The notes under the pieces were generated by a model that made no database searches, was not told the DNA's origin, and worked only from the letters and a program-made list of their open reading frames with translations. The translations under genes and the position numbers were made by a program. Of a stretch of 64,000 nucleotides of DNA, positions 35,056 through 45,111 are shown one piece after another. The DNA is from Ruaniaceae bacterium KH17. Lineage in GTDB: Bacteria; Actinomycetota; Actinomycetes; Actinomycetales; Actinomycetaceae. The stretch spans positions 1-64,000 of the forward strand of contig FZQV01000003.1 in the NCBI GenBank assembly GCA_900199505.1, read 5' to 3'. Positions within the stretch are counted from its first letter, which is position 1. Every line of letters begins with the position of its first letter.

Positions 35056-35907
35056 GTGGAATGGTGGCATGCAATCGTCCTCGGACTCGTCCAGGGACTC
35101 ACAGAGTTTCTCCCGATCTCATCGTCAGCGCACATTCGTGTAGTGGGAGAGTTGATGGGCCTCGGCGATCCGGGCGCTGCGTTCACCGCGATCACCCAGA
35201 TCGGTACCGAGACCGCGGTGGTGATCTACTTCCGGAAGAAGATCTGGCAGGTCATCACAGCGTGGTGCGGCGCGTTGCCGTTCGGCCCGTGGAAGAACAC
35301 GGTCCCGCGCGATAACCCCGACGCACGTATGGGCTGGTTCATCATCCTGGGCTCGATCCCGATCGTGGTGCTGGGGCTCTTCCTTGAGGACTGGATCGAT
35401 ACCACCTTCCGCAATCTCTACATCACTGCCGCGACCCTTGCGATCTTCGCGGTGATTCTCGGCGCCGCCGATCGCTATTCGAAGCGCACTCGCGAACTCG
35501 ACCAACTGAGTGGCACGCATGCGACCCTGTTCGGTTTCGCGCAGGCCATGGCGCTGATCCCCGGCGTCTCGCGCTCGGGCGGCACGATCACGGCCGGCCT
35601 GCTCATGGGCTACTCCCGCAAGGCGGCCGCCGATTACTCGTTCCTACTGGCGATCCCCGCGGTGCTCGGCTCGGGCTTCTACAAGCTGTTCAAGGACGGC
35701 TTCACGGGGGAGTCCGCCGTCTCGATGCCGCTCACGCTGGTCGCGACCGTCGTGGCATTCGTGGTCGGCTACTTCGTGATCGTGTGGTTCCTGAAGATGA
35801 TCACCACGAAGACCTACACGCCGTTCGTGATCTACCGACTGGTCCTCGCAGCGGTCATCGTGGTGCTGCTCCTGACCGGCACGCTCACCCCGCTACCTAC
35901 GACTTAG
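35056..35907 (+). CDS. uppP: Undecaprenyl-diphosphate phosphatase
   Basis: 283 aa from GTG 35056 (MEWWHAIVLGLVQG). The two BacA/UppP motifs are intact: 'LVQGLTEFLPISSSAHIRVVGELMG' with the catalytic Glu region, and 'ALIPGVSRSGGTITAGLLMG' with the Arg. There are seven to eight membrane helices. It recycles undecaprenyl phosphate for peptidoglycan and glycan synthesis. The GTG gives the family's usual N-terminus; in-frame starts at 35005 and 35023 would add unlikely residues and overlap the divergent gene's promoter. Confidence 0.92.
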   Translation: MEWWHAIVLGLVQGLTEFLPISSSAHIRVVGELMGLGDPGAAFTAITQIGTETAVVIYFRKKIWQVITAWCGALPFGPWKNTVPRDNPDARMGWFIILGSIPIVVLGLFLEDWIDTTFRNLYITAATLAIFAVILGAADRYSKRTRELDQLSGTHATLFGFAQAMALIPGVSRSGGTITAGLLMGYSRKAAADYSFLLAIPAVLGSGFYKLFKDGFTGESAVSMPLTLVATVVAFVVGYFVIVWFLKMITTKTYTPFVIYRLVLAAVIVVLLLTGTLTPLPTT

Positions 35908-36724
35908 GCCCGTCCTCTCGGCGGCGGAGGTAGCGTTCGAACTCGGCGGCGATCGCGTCCCCGCTGGCCGACGGCGAATCGGCAGTATCGCGCAGCTCCT
36001 CCAGTTGGGAGACGTACCCGGCCACGTCCGGGTTCTCGACCGTGAGCTCGTTGACGCCGCCTTCCCACTGCTTCGCGGCCTCCTTGAGCTCGCTCAGGTC
36101 AAGATCCTCACCAAGTACCACGGAAAGCTCCCGCGCGAGTGACAGCGACGCTTTGGGGGAGGGAGGATCCGCAACATAGTGCGGCACCGAGACCCAGATC
36201 TGCATCGTCGCGAAGCCTTCCTCTGCGGCAACGAGCTCGAGCACGCTCGTGATGCCTGCAGGACCCTGGTACTGCGATTGCTGGATCTCGCGCTCACGTT
36301 GCGTCACCGGGCTCGATGACGAGATCGAGAGCGGGAATGGCCGCGTGTGGGGGACATCCGCGAGGAGGGCACCGAGCACGACGAACTCGCCCACCGAGGC
36401 GTTGGTGGCCTCGAAGATGATCTCGGCCACGAACTCCTGCCAGTTGAAAGAAGGTTCGAGCCCGCGCAGGAGGAGCGCCTTCCGTCCGCTGGGCGTGGTG
36501 GCGGTCCAGATTTCGGTACCCGGCCACACGAGCTTGCGATCGCCGTCGTCCGTGGTCTCGAGCTGCGGGCGTGCCACCTGGAAGTCGTAGTACTCCTGCT
36601 CGTCGAGCCGCCCGACGGGGGTGGCATCCCAGGAATCGATCAAGGCCTCCACGAGACTGGTGGCGGCATTGCCGGCGTCACTCCAGCCCTCGAACGCGGC
36701 GATCATGATCGGATCGTTTCTCAT
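35897..36724 (-). CDS. PAC2 family protein
   Basis: 275 aa. 'MIAAFEGWSDAGNAATSLVEALIDSW', 'FYDFQVARPQLE'-like (here YYDFQVARPQLE), 'LLLRGLEPSFNWQEFVAEIIF' and 'VVLGALLADVPHTRPFPLSISSS' are the PAC2 signatures of proteasome-assembly-chaperone-like proteins common in actinobacteria. The bacterial role is unknown. It is notable in a genome segment whose pupylation locus lacks the 20S core. The stop overlaps that of uppP (convergent). TAAGCT lies six bases before the ATG. Confidence 0.9.
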   Translation of the reverse strand: MRNDPIMIAAFEGWSDAGNAATSLVEALIDSWDATPVGRLDEQEYYDFQVARPQLETTDDGDRKLVWPGTEIWTATTPSGRKALLLRGLEPSFNWQEFVAEIIFEATNASVGEFVVLGALLADVPHTRPFPLSISSSSPVTQREREIQQSQYQGPAGITSVLELVAAEEGFATMQIWVSVPHYVADPPSPKASLSLARELSVVLGEDLDLSELKEAAKQWEGGVNELTVENPDVAGYVSQLEELRDTADSPSASGDAIAAEFERYLRRREDGPKS

Positions 36725-38578: not shown

Positions 38579-39610
38579 ATGGGTTGGCGTATCGGAAGCA
38601 TCGGGGGAGTACCCCTCTACCTGGCGAAGAGTTGGCCGATCGGCGCGCTGCTGATCGGCTATGTGTACTTCATCAGCTTCAACAACTATGCAACCACCGG
38701 GCGTGCGGCGCTGATTTCCGCCATCGCCGTGGTGATGCTCTTCTTCTCGGTACTCGTACACGAGGTGTCACACGGCGTCGTCGGGAAGCTTCAGAAGCGT
38801 CCTCCCGAGTCCTACACGCTCACCCTCTTCGGTGGCCACACCACCTTCCGTACCCCCGATCCTTCCCCGGGCGCGATGGCGATCATCTCGCTGGCGGGCC
38901 CACTCGCGAACCTGGCACTCGCGGCCCTTGCCTGGGCGGGAACCTTGCTCCCTGTGGTTGGCCCATACATGGAGCCGCTTGCGATCGTGAACCTAATCCT
39001 CGGCCTGTTCAACCTCGCCCCCGGCCTCCCAATGGACGGCGGGTACATCGTGGCCGCGATCGGCTGGTTTGCCACCGACAGCCGCGAGCGCGGCATGGAG
39101 ATTTCCGGGTGGACCGGCCGCGTGATTGCAGGGTTGATCGCCGCCGCCTCTGTGTTCTGGCTCCTTCTCACGCAAGGCCGGAGCACCAGTGCACTCTGGA
39201 TGATCTTCATCGCGATCTTCCTCTGGCAAGGCGCGAGTCGTTCTATCCACGTGGCAAAGGCGCGGCAGGCGGTCACACACGTGGACCTGCGGCCGCTGAT
39301 GATGCCGGTCCCCGCCATTGAACACACCAAGGCCATTCGGGACGTGCCACCCACCGGCGCCGTGCTCGTGGACCGCGGCTGGCCCGTTGCCTTCATTCCG
39401 ATCCAGAATGTGGGGGGCAACGTGGACCCGAACGCCCCGGCAACGGCGATCTCGCTCGCCGTGCCCCGCCGCAACGTGATCACCACTCCCGTGGGAGCGG
39501 ACGCGGTCACCGCGGTGGCCGGAGCCGAGGGAGATCTCGTCATCCTGACCGATGGCGGCTACTACTGGGCGGGCTCGGTGCGCCAGATCGCCACACACGT
39601 GAACCGATAG
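38579..39610 (+). CDS. M50 site-2-protease family membrane peptidase
   Basis: 343 aa. The zinc motif HEVSH at residues 61-65 lies in a membrane helix, and the second motif 'FNLAPGLPMDGGYIV' supplies the Asp. Several further helices follow, then a C-terminal soluble part that looks like a CBS-type or PDZ-less domain. Such Rip-like proteases sit directly before trmI-arc in many actinobacterial pupylation loci. It is 11 bases ahead of trmI. Confidence 0.9.
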   Translation: MGWRIGSIGGVPLYLAKSWPIGALLIGYVYFISFNNYATTGRAALISAIAVVMLFFSVLVHEVSHGVVGKLQKRPPESYTLTLFGGHTTFRTPDPSPGAMAIISLAGPLANLALAALAWAGTLLPVVGPYMEPLAIVNLILGLFNLAPGLPMDGGYIVAAIGWFATDSRERGMEISGWTGRVIAGLIAAASVFWLLLTQGRSTSALWMIFIAIFLWQGASRSIHVAKARQAVTHVDLRPLMMPVPAIEHTKAIRDVPPTGAVLVDRGWPVAFIPIQNVGGNVDPNAPATAISLAVPRRNVITTPVGADAVTAVAGAEGDLVILTDGGYYWAGSVRQIATHVNR

Positions 39611-39613
39611 GCT
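39608..39613 (+). promoter_or_regulatory. Possible internal leaderless -10 before trmI
   Basis: TAGGCT, eight bases before GTG 39622. It overlaps the M50 stop codon. Confidence 0.4.
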
Positions 39614-39621
39614 GGGGCATC

Positions 39622-40617
39622 GTGACACTCATCGGACCGGCCGCACGCCGCGGCCCCTTGCATGACGGCGAACGGGTCCAGTTGACCGACGCCAAGGGCA
39701 AGATGCACACCATCCAGCTTCGTGCGGGCGAGCACTTCCACACGCATCGCGGCGGGATCGATCACGACCGCATCATCGGCCAGCCGGACGGCTCCGTGAT
39801 CCTGACCGAGCTCGAGCACGAGTACCTCGTGCTCCGGCCGCTGCTCTCGGACTACGTGATGGGCATGCCGCGCGGCGCCGCAATCGTCTACCCCAAGGAC
39901 GCCGGGCAGATCATCCAGATGGGCGACATCTTCGCCGGCGCCACCGTGGTGGAAGCCGGCGTGGGTTCGGGCGCGCTCTCGCAGAGCCTGCTCAACACCA
40001 TCGGCACCGAGGGCCGGCTCATCTCGATCGAACGCCGCGCCGACTTCGCCGAGATCGCGACGCTAAACGTGGACGCCTGGTTCGGCGAGCGGCACCCCGC
40101 GTGGGAGGTGCACGTGGGCGATCTGGCCGAGGTGCTTCCCACTCTTGGGGTGGAACCGGACCGGATCGTGCTGGACATGCTGGCGCCCTGGGAGAACATC
40201 GAGGTAGTCGAGCAGACCCTCACTCCGGGTGGCGTGCTGCTCGCCTACGTTGCCACCACCACCCAGATGTCCCGCTTCGTTGAAGAACTGCGCGCCACCG
40301 AGCGCTTCACCGAGCCGCAGGCGTTGGAGTCCATGGTCCGCACCTGGCACGTGGAGGGACTTGCAGTGCGCCCGGACCACCGGATGGTCGCCCACACCGG
40401 ATTCCTGGTCACTGCCCGGCTGTTGGCCCCCGGAACCATCACCCCTGAGCGCTCGCGCCGCCCGGCGCCGTCGGCCCAAGGAGTTGAAGACCACCTGGCG
40501 GGCGTGCCTTTCACCCCCGAGAACCTGGGGGAGCGCGCCACATCGGACAAGAAGATACGCCGCGTGACCCGCGATCTCGCCCGCCGCGCCGCCTATGACG
40601 AGGAGACCCGTGGATAA
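39622..40617 (+). CDS. trmI: tRNA (adenine(58)-N1)-methyltransferase
   Basis: 331 aa. The N-terminal beta domain '[29 protein letters not shown]' precedes a class I SAM fold: '[25 protein letters not shown]' (motif I), '[37 protein letters not shown]' (motifs IV-V). '[14 protein letters not shown]' is the TrmI-specific block. It makes m1A58 in tRNA. The linkage with arc-dop-pup is conserved in actinobacteria. The C-terminal 50 residues are basic. Confidence 0.93.
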
Positions 40618-42142
40618 CGACCTGGACGCAATCTCGCTGGCCGCGAAGAACGAACGCCTCGCACACGCGCTCTCGGACGCGCGCCGCAAGCTCGTCAACA
40701 TGCAGGAGCAGATCGACGCGCTCACCTCCCCGCCGAACTCCTACGGTGTTTTCCTCGAGTCGCACATGGACGATCGCAGTGCGGACGTGATGGTGGCCGG
40801 GCGCAAGATGCGGCTCTCCGTGTCCTCCACGATCCCGCTCGGAGCGCTCCGCCCGGGCCAGGAGGTGCGGCTCTCCGAGGCGCTGAGCGTGATCGGCGCG
40901 CTCGGTTTCGAGCAGGCCGGCGAGGTGGGCCTCGTGCGCGAGCGGCTCGATGACGATCGGGTACTTGTGGCTCTTCGGGCCGACGACGAACGCGTCGTTC
41001 GGCTAGCAGGCCCACTCCTGAAGGCGGACATCAAGCATGGCGACGCCGTCCTGGTGGACCTGCGCGCATACGTTGCCACCGCTGTCGTGGCACGTAGCGA
41101 GATCGAGGATCTGCTCCTCGAGGAGCAACCCACCACCACCTACGACGAGATCGGTGGCCTCGGCCCGCAGATCGAGGAGATCCGCGACACCGTGGAGCTC
41201 CCGTTCTTGCACCCGGAGCTGTACCGGGAGCACGGGTTGCGCCCGCCGAAGGGCCTGCTCCTGTATGGCCCGCCGGGATGCGGTAAGACCCTCATCGCGA
41301 AGGCGATCGCCAACTCGCTCGCGCAGACCGTGGGCGGCGACCGTGCCTACTTCCTGAACGTCAAGGGCCCCGAGCTCCTGAACAAGTTCGTGGGCGAGAC
41401 CGAACGTCAGATCCGTGTGATCTTCCAGCGCGCCCGAGAACGCGCCACCACCGGCGTGCCCGTGATCATCTTCTTCGACGAGATGGAATCGCTGTTCCGC
41501 ACCCGTGGCGGGGGCGTCTCCTCGGACGTGGAGACCACAGTGGTGCCGCAGCTGCTGGCCGAGGTCGACGGCGTCGAGTCGCTCAGCAATGTGGTGATTA
41601 TCGGTGCGTCAAACCGTGAGGACATGATCGATCCCGCGATCCTGCGCCCCGGTCGGTTGGACCTGAAGATCCGGATCGACCGGCCGGATGCGGAAGGCGC
41701 ACGCGAGATCTTCGCGAAGTACCTCACCACGGATCTGCCCATCCGCGCCGATGAGGTGGCGAAGTATGGCTCGGTGGGAAACGCCGTCGGGCAGATCATC
41801 GAGACCGCGGTGCAGGCGCTCTACGCGACGGATTCGAGCACGGCGGCCGCAGAGGTGACGTACACGGACGGCCAGCGTGGCACGCTCTACGTGCGGGACT
41901 TCGTCTCCGGCGCGATGATCGCCGGGATCGTGGACCGCGCCAAGAAGGCCGCGATCAAGGACCTGCTGGCCGGGGGAGAGCGCGGCATCGCCACCGAGCA
42001 TCTGCTACGCGCACTGTCCCAAGAGATCACCGAGAACGAGGACTTGCGCACCGGCGCCGATCCCGAACGCTGGTCCCGGATTCTCGGCGGGCGCCGCCCC
42101 ATCGTGGCGGCCCGGCCCCTGCGAGCGGAGGCGATCCAGTGA
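40610..42142 (+). CDS. arc: Proteasome-associated AAA ATPase ARC/Mpa
   Basis: 510 aa from GTG 40610, chosen because AGGAG lies four bases upstream. An N-terminal coiled coil ('[34 protein letters not shown]') binds Pup. Two OB folds follow, then one AAA domain with Walker A GPPGCGKT at 220-227 and Walker B FFDE with Glu291. It unfolds pupylated proteins. The C-terminus ends RPLRAEAIQ and lacks the QYL-type motif with penultimate Tyr that docks Mpa onto the 20S proteasome. It overlaps dop by four bases. Confidence 0.93.
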
Positions 42143-43590
42143 CACGCGTGATGGGAATCGAGACCGAATACGGCATCCTCGACCCCGCGGATTCATGGGC
42201 GAACCCCATGGAAATGTCCGCGGCGATCGTGATGGCGTACTGCGGGCGCAACCCGCACGCGGCGTGGGACTACATCGGTGAGGATCCGCTGAACGACGCC
42301 CGCGGCTATCGACTGCCGCGCGCCGCGGCGGACATCTCGCAGCTCACCGACTCACCCCAGTTGCGCGCAGGTGCCCCTGGCGCGGTGATCGGCAACGGTG
42401 GCCGGTTCTACGTGGACCACGCGCACCCCGAGTACTCCTCGCCCGAGGTTTCGAACGCCCGGGACGCGTTGCTGTGGGATCGCGCGGGGGACGTCGTCGC
42501 GCGTGCGGCCATGGATGGGCTCGCCAGCGAGGGCCGCACGATCGTGCTGTACAAGAACAACGTGGACGGGAAGGGCGCCTCATACGGCACCCACGAGAAT
42601 TACCTCGTAGACCGCGCCGTGCCGTTCCACGAGATTGGCTACCGGCTCACACCGTTCTTCGTGACCCGGCCGCTCATGGTCGGTTCGGGGCGTGTGGGTC
42701 TCGGGCAGAAATCGCAGGAGCCGGGTTTCCAGATCTCGCAGCGCGCCGATTATGTGGAGAACGACATCGGCCTCGAGACCACCTTCAATCGACCGATCAT
42801 CAACACCCGGGATGAGCCGCACGCGACCCCGGAGAAGTACCGCCGGCTGCACGTGATCGGCGGTGACGCGAACCTGTTCGACGTCCCGAGCTACCTCAAG
42901 TTCGCGACCACCTCGCTCGTACTCACACTCATCGAGCGGGACGTGTTCCCACTCGCGATGGACACGATCACGCTCACCGCGCCCGTGGTGGACTCGTGGG
43001 GCGTGAGCCACGATCCGTTCGATCATGTCCTGTCCACTCAGACCGGCCGCAAGACGGCGCTCGATGTCCAGCGCATGTACCTGGACCTGGCCGCCGAGCA
43101 CCTGGCGGGAGAGGATGACGAGACCGACTTCGCGCTTGCACTGTGGGACGAGGTGCTGACCGGGCTGGCGAGCGATCCCGATTCGGTGGCGGACGCCGTC
43201 GAATGGGTGGCGAAGAAGCAGATCCTTGAGGGGATGCGCTCGCGCTTCGGTACCGGCTGGCAGGATCCGCGGCTGGCCGCGCTCGACCTGCAATGGTCTG
43301 ACCTGCGCCTGGAGACGGGCCTCGTGCCACGCCTCGAGGCGGCAGGGAAGGTTCGCCGCCTGGTGTCCGACGGCGATGTGGCGCGTGCCGCTGTTGAGCC
43401 GCCCGCCGATACCCGCGCCTACGTCCGCGGCACCGCCGTCCAGCGTTTCGGGCTGCGCGCGGCGAGTTGGACTTCGCTCGTTGCCGAAGTGCCGGAGCTC
43501 ACACGCATTCCACTTGGCGATCCGCTCACCGGGACGAAGGCCGAGACGGCTACCCTCGGAAGCCTGAGAGAACTGTTTTCGAAGGAATGA
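42139..43590 (+). CDS. dop: Dop, deamidase/depupylase of Pup
   Basis: 483 aa glutamine-synthetase-like fold. The metal-binding GIETEYGI gives Glu8 and Glu10, and '[18 protein letters not shown]' gives the catalytic Asp93. Compared with PafA it has the longer N-terminal loop typical of Dop ('[20 protein letters not shown]'). Dop deamidates Pup-Gln to Pup-Glu and removes Pup from substrates. Since this Pup already ends in Glu, depupylation is probably its sole task. Seven bases separate it from pup. Confidence 0.94.
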
Positions 43591-43597
43591 TGGAGAG

Positions 43598-43780
43598 ATG
43601 AGCAGCCAGGAATTCGCCCGCAGCTCGCGCCGCGAGGACACGCCCCCGCCCGAGCTTCCCGTGCCCCAGGTCGCCGCGCAGACCAGCTCGGTAGACAGCC
43701 TCCTCGACGAGATCGATTCGATCCTCGTCACGAACGCAGAATCGTTCGTGCAGGGATTCGTCCAGAAGGGCGGCGAATGA
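43598..43780 (+). CDS. pup: Prokaryotic ubiquitin-like protein Pup
   Basis: 60 aa, intrinsically disordered in the family. The Arc-binding helix is '[31 protein letters not shown]'. The protein ends GGE, the form ready for ligation to lysines by PafA. It has a single Lys, at position 57. A Shine-Dalgarno (GGAGAG) lies before ATG 43598. It is followed directly by pafA (ATGA overlap), without the prcB and prcA genes often found there. Confidence 0.95.
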
Positions 43781-45111
43781 TCCCTCGCCGGATCTGGGGC
43801 GTCGAGACTGAATACGGCATCACCTGCGCCTCACTGGATGGCGACGTGCCGCCCATGGATGCCGATGAGGCCGCGCGCCACATGTTCCGCCCGGTCGTGG
43901 CATCGGGCCGCTCGACGAACGTCTTCATGGCGAACGGCGGGCGGCTCTACCTCGACGTGGGCTCGCACCCCGAGTACGCCACTGCTGAATGCGACACCCT
44001 GCCGGACTTGCTCGCCCAGGACCGAGCGGGAGCCGAGATGCTCGCTGAACTGGCCGCGACGGCGTCGGCGGAGTTTGAGACCCAAGGCATTCGGGGGCGG
44101 TTGCACCTGTTCCGCAACAACGTGGACTCCGCCGGGAACTCGTTCGGGTGCCACGAGAACTACCTCGTGCGCCGCCGCCCGGACTTCCCGGCCATGGTCG
44201 CCTCCCTGATCCCGTACTTCGTGAGCCGCCAGATCGTGGCGGGCGCGGGCTTCCTGAGTGGGGGAGCGCTGGCCTTCTCGCAACGCGCCACCCAGACGTG
44301 GGACGCAACGAGTTCGGCCACCACGCGATCGCGGCCGATCGTGAACACGCGCGATGAACCGCACGCGGACGTGGACTTGTACCGCCGCATGCACGTGATC
44401 GTGGGCGACTCGAACATGGCCGAAGGCTCGACTCTTGTGAAGGTTGCCGCCACCAACCTCGTGCTCGCCGCGGTCGAATCGGGTGAGCGGTTCTCACTCG
44501 AACTCTCGGACCCGATGCGGGCGATCCGCGAGTTCTCCACCGATCTCACGGGGACCGTGACGGCCGAGCTCACCGACGGCCGCCGGATGACCGCCGCCGC
44601 GATCCAGCGCTACTACTTCGACGCCGTCGCCGAACTGGCCGACGAGCCGTGGCACGAGAGCGCCGTGGATCTCTGGCGGCGCGGGATCGAGGCCGTGGAA
44701 ACCGGCCGGCACGAGCTCGTCGAGACCGAACTCGACTGGGCGATCAAGCAGAAGCTGGTGACCGGATATGCCGCTCGACCGGGCGCCAACAGTGCCGGCC
44801 TGAAGCGCCTGGTGCTCGCGTACCACGACACCACGGACAACCTGCGCGCCAAGATGGAACAAGGTGGCCTGATGCGCCGGTTCACCACTCCAGAGGCCGT
44901 TCGGAACGCCGCCGCGAACCCGCCCGCAACAACGCGCGCCGCACTTCGTGGCGCCTTTGTTGCCGCCGCGCAGGAACACCGCCGGGACCATGCCGTCGAT
45001 TGGATGCACCTGAAGCTCGCCGATCCGTCGCAGCGCGCCGTGGTGCTCTCCGATCCATTCGCAACCTCGAACGAGGCGGCGGAGAAGTTGATCGCGGCGG
45101 CACGCGCATGA
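43777..45111 (+). CDS. pafA: PafA, Pup-protein ligase
   Basis: 444 aa glutamine-synthetase-like ligase. Metal-binding Glu10 and Glu12 are in GVETEYGI, and catalytic Asp60 in '[19 protein letters not shown]'. The '[21 protein letters not shown]' and '[33 protein letters not shown]' blocks are family features. It activates the Pup C-terminal Glu with ATP and joins it to substrate lysines. It overlaps pup and the FKBP gene, each by four bases. Confidence 0.95.

Follow-up and report, generated by a model that had tools for sequence, protein, structure and literature searches.

The window, the whole 64,000-nucleotide stretch of contig FZQV01000003.1 analyzed here, carries the four genes arc, dop, pup, and pafA, complete and adjacent on the plus strand and all scoring above their NCBIfam equivalog cut-offs. 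The features of the locus and its upstream flank are:

35897 to 36724, minus strand: PAC2-family gene, of the family of proteasome-assembly chaperone 2 (PF09754, 169.7 bits)
38579 to 39610, plus strand: M50-family membrane metallopeptidase (PF02163)
39622 to 40617, plus strand: TrmI-like tRNA m1A methyltransferase, directly upstream of arc (PF14801, PF08704)
40595 to 42142, plus strand: arc, proteasome-associated AAA ATPase, Mpa homologue (515 amino acids; TIGR03689, 737.9 bits)
42139 to 43590, plus strand: dop, Pup deamidase/depupylase (483 amino acids; TIGR03688, 549.7 bits)
43598 to 43780, plus strand: pup (60 amino acids; TIGR03687, 66.3 bits; PF05639, 60.9 bits)
43777 to 45111, plus strand: pafA, Pup ligase (444 amino acids; TIGR03686, 563.1 bits)
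43777 to 43780, plus strand: ATGA, the pup stop and pafA start overlapping (from the sequence and gene coordinates)

The original prediction of intact, full-length genes in this order, with pafA following pup in a four-base overlap, is borne out: pup and pafA share ATGA. The genes arc and dop overlap by four bases as well. The interval proposed for the locus, 38579 to 45111, does contain all four genes, but its first 2 kb belong to the M50 peptidase and the TrmI-like gene, and arc begins only at 40595. The TrmI gene is a conserved neighbor of arc in relatives and not a pupylation gene, and many proteasome-bearing relatives likewise have the M50 peptidase gene upstream of arc. Promoter and terminator scans gave results at or near chance (1 found versus 0.9 expected; 4 versus 2.7). 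A separate observation on the flank is that the PAC2-family gene lies 4 kb upstream of a pupylation locus without a 20S core.

The encoded ARC could be aligned with Mpa (7ljf) over residues 13 to 501; it has OB and AAA domains, and the part N-terminal to the OB domains can be matched to Mpa starting at residue 13. Its C terminus reads RPLRAEAIQ, and the GQYL/HbYX tail is absent. Dop was aligned with Dop 4b0r over residues 1 to 472, carries the YVDHAHPEY motif, and has a stretch missing from PafA, the Dop loop. PafA was aligned with the C. glutamicum-type PafA 4b0t over residues 2 to 439 and contains two motifs, GVETEY and [11 protein letters not shown], the latter with a catalytic role; in PafA, Dop, and ARC alike, the active-site motifs align with those of the solved structures. 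Pup ends in VQKGGE, the GGE type (PupE), and, judging from this encoded end, is already ligation-competent. GGE ends like that of the window occur in 6 of 62 Actinomycetaceae loci, and GGQ ends in the other 56. Since the window Pup is of the GGE type, Dop would not be needed for its activation, which favors a role as depupylase.

Absence of the 20S proteasome in the genome and its relatives

The source genome comprises 2,724,385 bases in 72 contigs, with 100% completeness and 0.1% contamination. Whether prcB and prcA lie elsewhere in it decides the central claim, and their absence holds. PF00227, which covers alpha and beta subunits, had 0 matches across the whole genome (2.72 Mb), and TIGR03690, the model of the bacterial beta subunit, had 0 matches genome-wide at E<=10, with 0/14 over the cut-off in its control set, which was without any bacterial proteasome. 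The PF00227 search was positive in 10/14 control genomes and in 144/248 genomes of the order. One ARC over the cut-off, one Pup, one Dop, and one PafA were found, and genome-wide searches for ARC, Pup, and Dop/PafA did not find a second pupylation system in the source genome. Bpa, the ATP-independent 20S activator, is absent in 151/151 Actinomycetaceae genomes, the source genome included. The first Bpa search had no match in its controls; proteasome-bearing genomes were then used as the control, with Bpa found in 11/15 of them and in 0/5 proteasome-free genomes.

Could prcB and prcA be present and have been missed through an assembly gap, divergence, or a binning error? The division of the genome into 72 contigs would allow for it, but completeness is 100%, two models gave zero matches, the usual site of the genes is closed by the four-base overlap, and the rest of the family is equally negative (0/151), single-contig genomes included, so that the chance of such an oversight is negligible.

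The same 151 Actinomycetaceae genomes, all without a PF00227 match, encode Pup in 145 cases and an above-cut-off ARC in 139, indicating that the pupylation system has been kept without the proteasome. The relatives found by PafA bear the names of Actinomycetaceae and of Georgenia, and the family searched is accordingly taken to be Actinomycetaceae as broadly defined in GTDB. Across a sample of 248 genomes of the order, PF00227 is present in 144, Pup in 226, and both in 143; Pup without PF00227 is seen in 83/226 Pup-positive genomes, spread over 8 GTDB-type families. These 83 consist of 20 Actinomycetaceae members and 63 genomes from seven further families (f9, 18; f11, 16; f3, 14; f5, 6; f17, 6; f20, 2; f8, 1), among which the two f20 genomes, 90% and 67% complete, may lack PF00227 through assembly gaps.

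The literature has precedents for this arrangement. Section 5 of the review PMC3511204 describes some actinobacteria, e.g., corynebacteria, as lacking 20S genes, with pup then directly before pafA and the ATPase retained without its C-terminal motif. Passages of PMC6466877 put the sequenced actinobacteria that are without core genes through loss at about half, and parts of PMC8223512 and PMC4254994 name Micrococcus luteus and bifidobacteria, besides corynebacteria, as proteasome-free. The locus had been put forward as a second, independent-looking case after Corynebacterium; its separateness from Corynebacterium stands on the trees, but with 0/151 in the family, 83/226 in the order, and these precedents it is not the second. 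The proteasome-less pupylation locus is real and was correctly described, and as a phenomenon it is ordinary.

Evolutionary history of the proteasome loss

In proteasome-bearing relatives, prcB and prcA occupy the very point of the pup/pafA junction. The deletion point at this junction is not special to the locus: pup stands directly before pafA in such genomes according to section 5 of PMC3511204, and the four-base pup-pafA overlap recurs in 35/52 measurable Actinomycetaceae loci (63 examined, 11 of them not measurable under the start-codon rule). Of 29 proteasome-bearing loci, 27 allow the prcA-pafA boundary to be measured, and 6 of these have an overlap of exactly four bases there. The pup-pafA overlap may stem either from a clean excision preserving translational coupling or from a renewed tightening.

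The proposed tree comparison of Arc/PafA between proteasome-bearing and proteasome-less actinobacteria was made by IQ-TREE on joined ARC, Dop, and PafA sequences (52 rows, LG+G4, quick search). The 27 Actinomycetaceae rows form one clade (support 100) away from Corynebacterium, and their sister group is the proteasome-bearing Beutenbergiaceae, represented by Serinibacter and Miniimonas (support 89). The family is also one clade, of 30 rows, in an ARC-only tree (support 100). The window groups with UBA1383, Chersky_575, INTA.AUR.005, and AS06rmzACSIP_635 (support 99); its genus is near the uncultured UBA1383/UBA1416 lineage. A FastTree of 122 rows that included second pupylation systems did not keep the family together: Georgenia fell among proteasome-bearing rows, and the second systems fell outside everything, with long branches flagged. 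Because of these long branches, the smaller IQ-TREE sets are preferred.

The label "has prcBA" requires 5 changes on the IQ-TREE and 8 on the 122-row FastTree, indicating that the proteasome was lost several times, although the direction of single changes is not proved. For Actinomycetaceae, we infer that prcB-prcA was probably lost once, in the ancestor of the family, leaving pup directly before pafA. The trees support this putative loss as separate from that of Corynebacterium.

Loss and retention of the ARC docking tail

Complete ARC ends of proteasome-bearing loci show YL in 21/24 cases, mostly as GQYL; the exceptions are L207 (f6) and L219 and L220 (f11). The complete ARC ends of the 8 Corynebacterium loci compared are without YL. 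The system-1 loci of Actinomycetaceae lack YL in 56/61 cases, and the five that have it belong to Georgenia. A sample of high-scoring ARC loci, chosen by score and including second systems, has YL in 17/30, and 20 further ARC ends taken by genus (25 sought, 5 unresolved) have it in none. YL-ended ARC was seen at loci L001 to L006, L009 to L013, L015, L016, L018, L019, L021, and L029. The genera with YL-ended ARC are g8, g9, g13, g22, and g30, all five proteasome-free by PF00227, which deviates from the rule as worded in section 5 of PMC3511204.

The survival of YL tails in five proteasome-free genera indicates that 20S loss and tail loss are not tightly coupled. In the ARC-only tree, for which the tail was removed (42 rows), rows with YL take a basal position, the window falls in a 20-row non-YL clade (support 95), and g3 lost YL separately. 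A retained tail could reflect either a new partner or slow decay.

Outside the family, other stages can be seen. Two f11 loci, L219 and L220 (genomes G208 and G312), have prcB and prcA, a lost ARC tail, and no Bpa, and their close relatives are without prcBA; here the order of losses looks reversed. A Pup locus of f8, L233 (G374), lacks prcBA while its ARC end is still TGTYL, perhaps a recent proteasome loss. Bpa was not found in four proteasome-bearing genomes, G157 and G232 (f8) and G208 and G312 (f11), which speaks against the strict co-occurrence in passages of PMC8223512, where Bpa accompanies every 20S.

Proposed role of pupylation without a proteasome

We regard the window as holding the family's standard proteasome-less locus, left by one prcBA loss and predicted to serve reversible tagging together with ARC unfolding without 20S (probability about 0.72). 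Such a role is the likeliest because ARC lacks GQYL, Pup is of the GGE type, and the active-site motifs of the enzymes are kept. PafA would attach the ready-made PupE to lysines, ARC would recognize Pup via its N-terminal region and unfold or remodel the tagged protein without feeding it into a 20S core, and Dop would remove Pup again, its deamidase step being dispensable with a GGE Pup. The earlier suggestion that Mpa acts as an unfoldase, or a nonproteolytic role in general, fits an ARC without the GQYL tail.

Is there an obvious substrate? Passages of PMC8223512, which name C. glutamicum and M. luteus, describe ARC-driven ferritin unfolding in C. glutamicum. Ferritin was considered for the source genome and rejected: the sole PF00210 protein found in it resembles Dps (its best NCBIfam match, at 100.2 bits, below the cut-off of 114) and not a 24-mer ferritin, which counts against a simple carry-over of the C. 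glutamicum substrate.

Pup might instead still mark proteins for destruction, with a different peptidase replacing the 20S core as the docking partner of ARC. The AAA module of ARC is kept, and the YL-ended ARC of the five proteasome-free genera hints at a docking partner there, but the window ARC itself has no YL tail, and no new peptidase gene has joined the locus, the upstream M50 gene being shared with many proteasome-bearing relatives; we consider this unlikely. A third explanation sees the pupylation genes as remnants in decay now that the proteasome is gone, and the lack of a detectable Pup in 6/151 family genomes and of an ARC over the cut-off in 12/151 would agree with it. Yet the four genes in the window remain intact and coupled, retention is high across the family, and some members carry a second system, which makes decay very improbable.

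A second, divergent pupylation system in some family members

Two Pups are encoded in 23/151 Actinomycetaceae genomes. The second locus was examined in 19 of these 23 (G098, G019, G049, and G073 were left out), and in all 19 the second Pup is part of a second, divergent pupylation locus (L163 to L181, L201, and L202): 16 have arc, dop, pup, and pafA together, two are without dop, and in one (G059) the locus is broken up by contig ends. Within a genome, systems 1 and 2 share 45 to 57% identity for ARC (18 pairs), 40 to 54% for Dop (17 pairs), and 36 to 47% for PafA (19 pairs), and their Pups match at 15 to 21 of the 35 C-terminal residues. Active-site motifs are matched by the second Dop in 16/17 genomes having one and by the second PafA in 18/19. 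In L176, the one second locus scanned with NCBIfam, ARC and Pup exceed their cut-offs, and Dop (424.5 versus 492.3 bits) and PafA (373.2 versus 551.3 bits) are below theirs, yet the best matches of these two are Dop and PafA. In L172 (G061) and L180 (G123), the second system is without dop though its Pup ends in GGQ, implying that the Dop of the first system would be needed.

Where did the second systems come from? By IQ-TREE they form one group with Mobiluncus (support 100), and in the free search Galactobacter and one f11 row stand beside system 2. A tree constrained to join the family's two systems was 48.7 log units higher than the free search (p-AU 0.943), and a putative within-family origin is not rejected. 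Distances in systems 1 and 2 correlate (Mantel r 0.71, 0/5000 permutations as high, 18 genomes). Nearest neighbors conflict between the two systems in some genomes, e.g., G004 and G036, suggesting that some horizontal transfer of second systems is likely. Clustering of open frames by similarity found no conserved partner cluster beyond the four genes in most second loci, and flanks are common to subgroups only; this clustering is coarse, with frames antisense to the four genes clustered too.

No mention of a second pupylation system in Actinomycetaceae was found among open-licence papers; passages of PMC3511204 treat the double systems of Leptospirillum and contain statements on two pup genes. 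It is possible, as a tentative scenario, that pupylation outlived the proteasome in this family, became stand-alone signaling, and then doubled within the family to give some members two Pup codes per cell, with the basal YL-ended ARC docking on a non-20S partner and the window locus representing the ancestral copy, system 1.

The whole family, not one genome, joins the lineages that keep Pup tagging without a proteasome, and its family-wide persistence supports a Pup role beyond degradation. Sharper openings lie in the relatives: a YL-tailed ARC despite the statement in section 5 of PMC3511204, and cells that carry a divergent second pupylation set alongside the first. Through both, the purpose of proteasome-free Pup becomes testable in non-pathogenic soil genera such as Georgenia.

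Comparison with known systems

The window has the parts of a pupylation locus, namely, a GGE Pup, the PafA motifs, a Dop with its loop and motif, and an ARC/Mpa ATPase. Mycobacterium, Streptomyces, and Beutenbergiaceae have homologs of all four genes, arranged as in the window and with the same neighbors, trmI and an FKBP gene, but they carry prcB and prcA between pup and pafA and an ARC ending in GQYL; the marks of a Pup-proteasome locus, prcBA, the GQYL/HbYX tail of ARC, and Bpa, are all absent here.

Duplicated systems are described in passages of PMC3511204, both for Leptospirillum ferrooxidans (L1/L2) and for organisms that have PupQ as well as PupE. Two full systems per genome are likewise seen in the 19 relatives examined, whereas the window genome has one system only. 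The second system of the relatives occurs in a proteasome-free family, in contrast to the Leptospirillum case of those passages, which has a proteasome.

Another close likeness is to C. glutamicum and M. luteus, which in the passages of PMC3511204 and PMC8223512 have arc, dop, pup, and pafA without prcBA and an ARC without docking tail; the window shows the same Corynebacterium-type arrangement of pup directly before pafA. According to parts of PMC8223512, the probable fate of pupylated ferritin in C. glutamicum is unfolding by ARC and recycling by Dop. The window differs from Corynebacterium in that its genome has a Dps-like protein only, with no 24-mer ferritin candidate found, and in its separate loss on the trees: a loss ancestry shared with Corynebacterium is not borne out by IQ-TREE, where the family clade stands beside proteasome-bearing Beutenbergiaceae.
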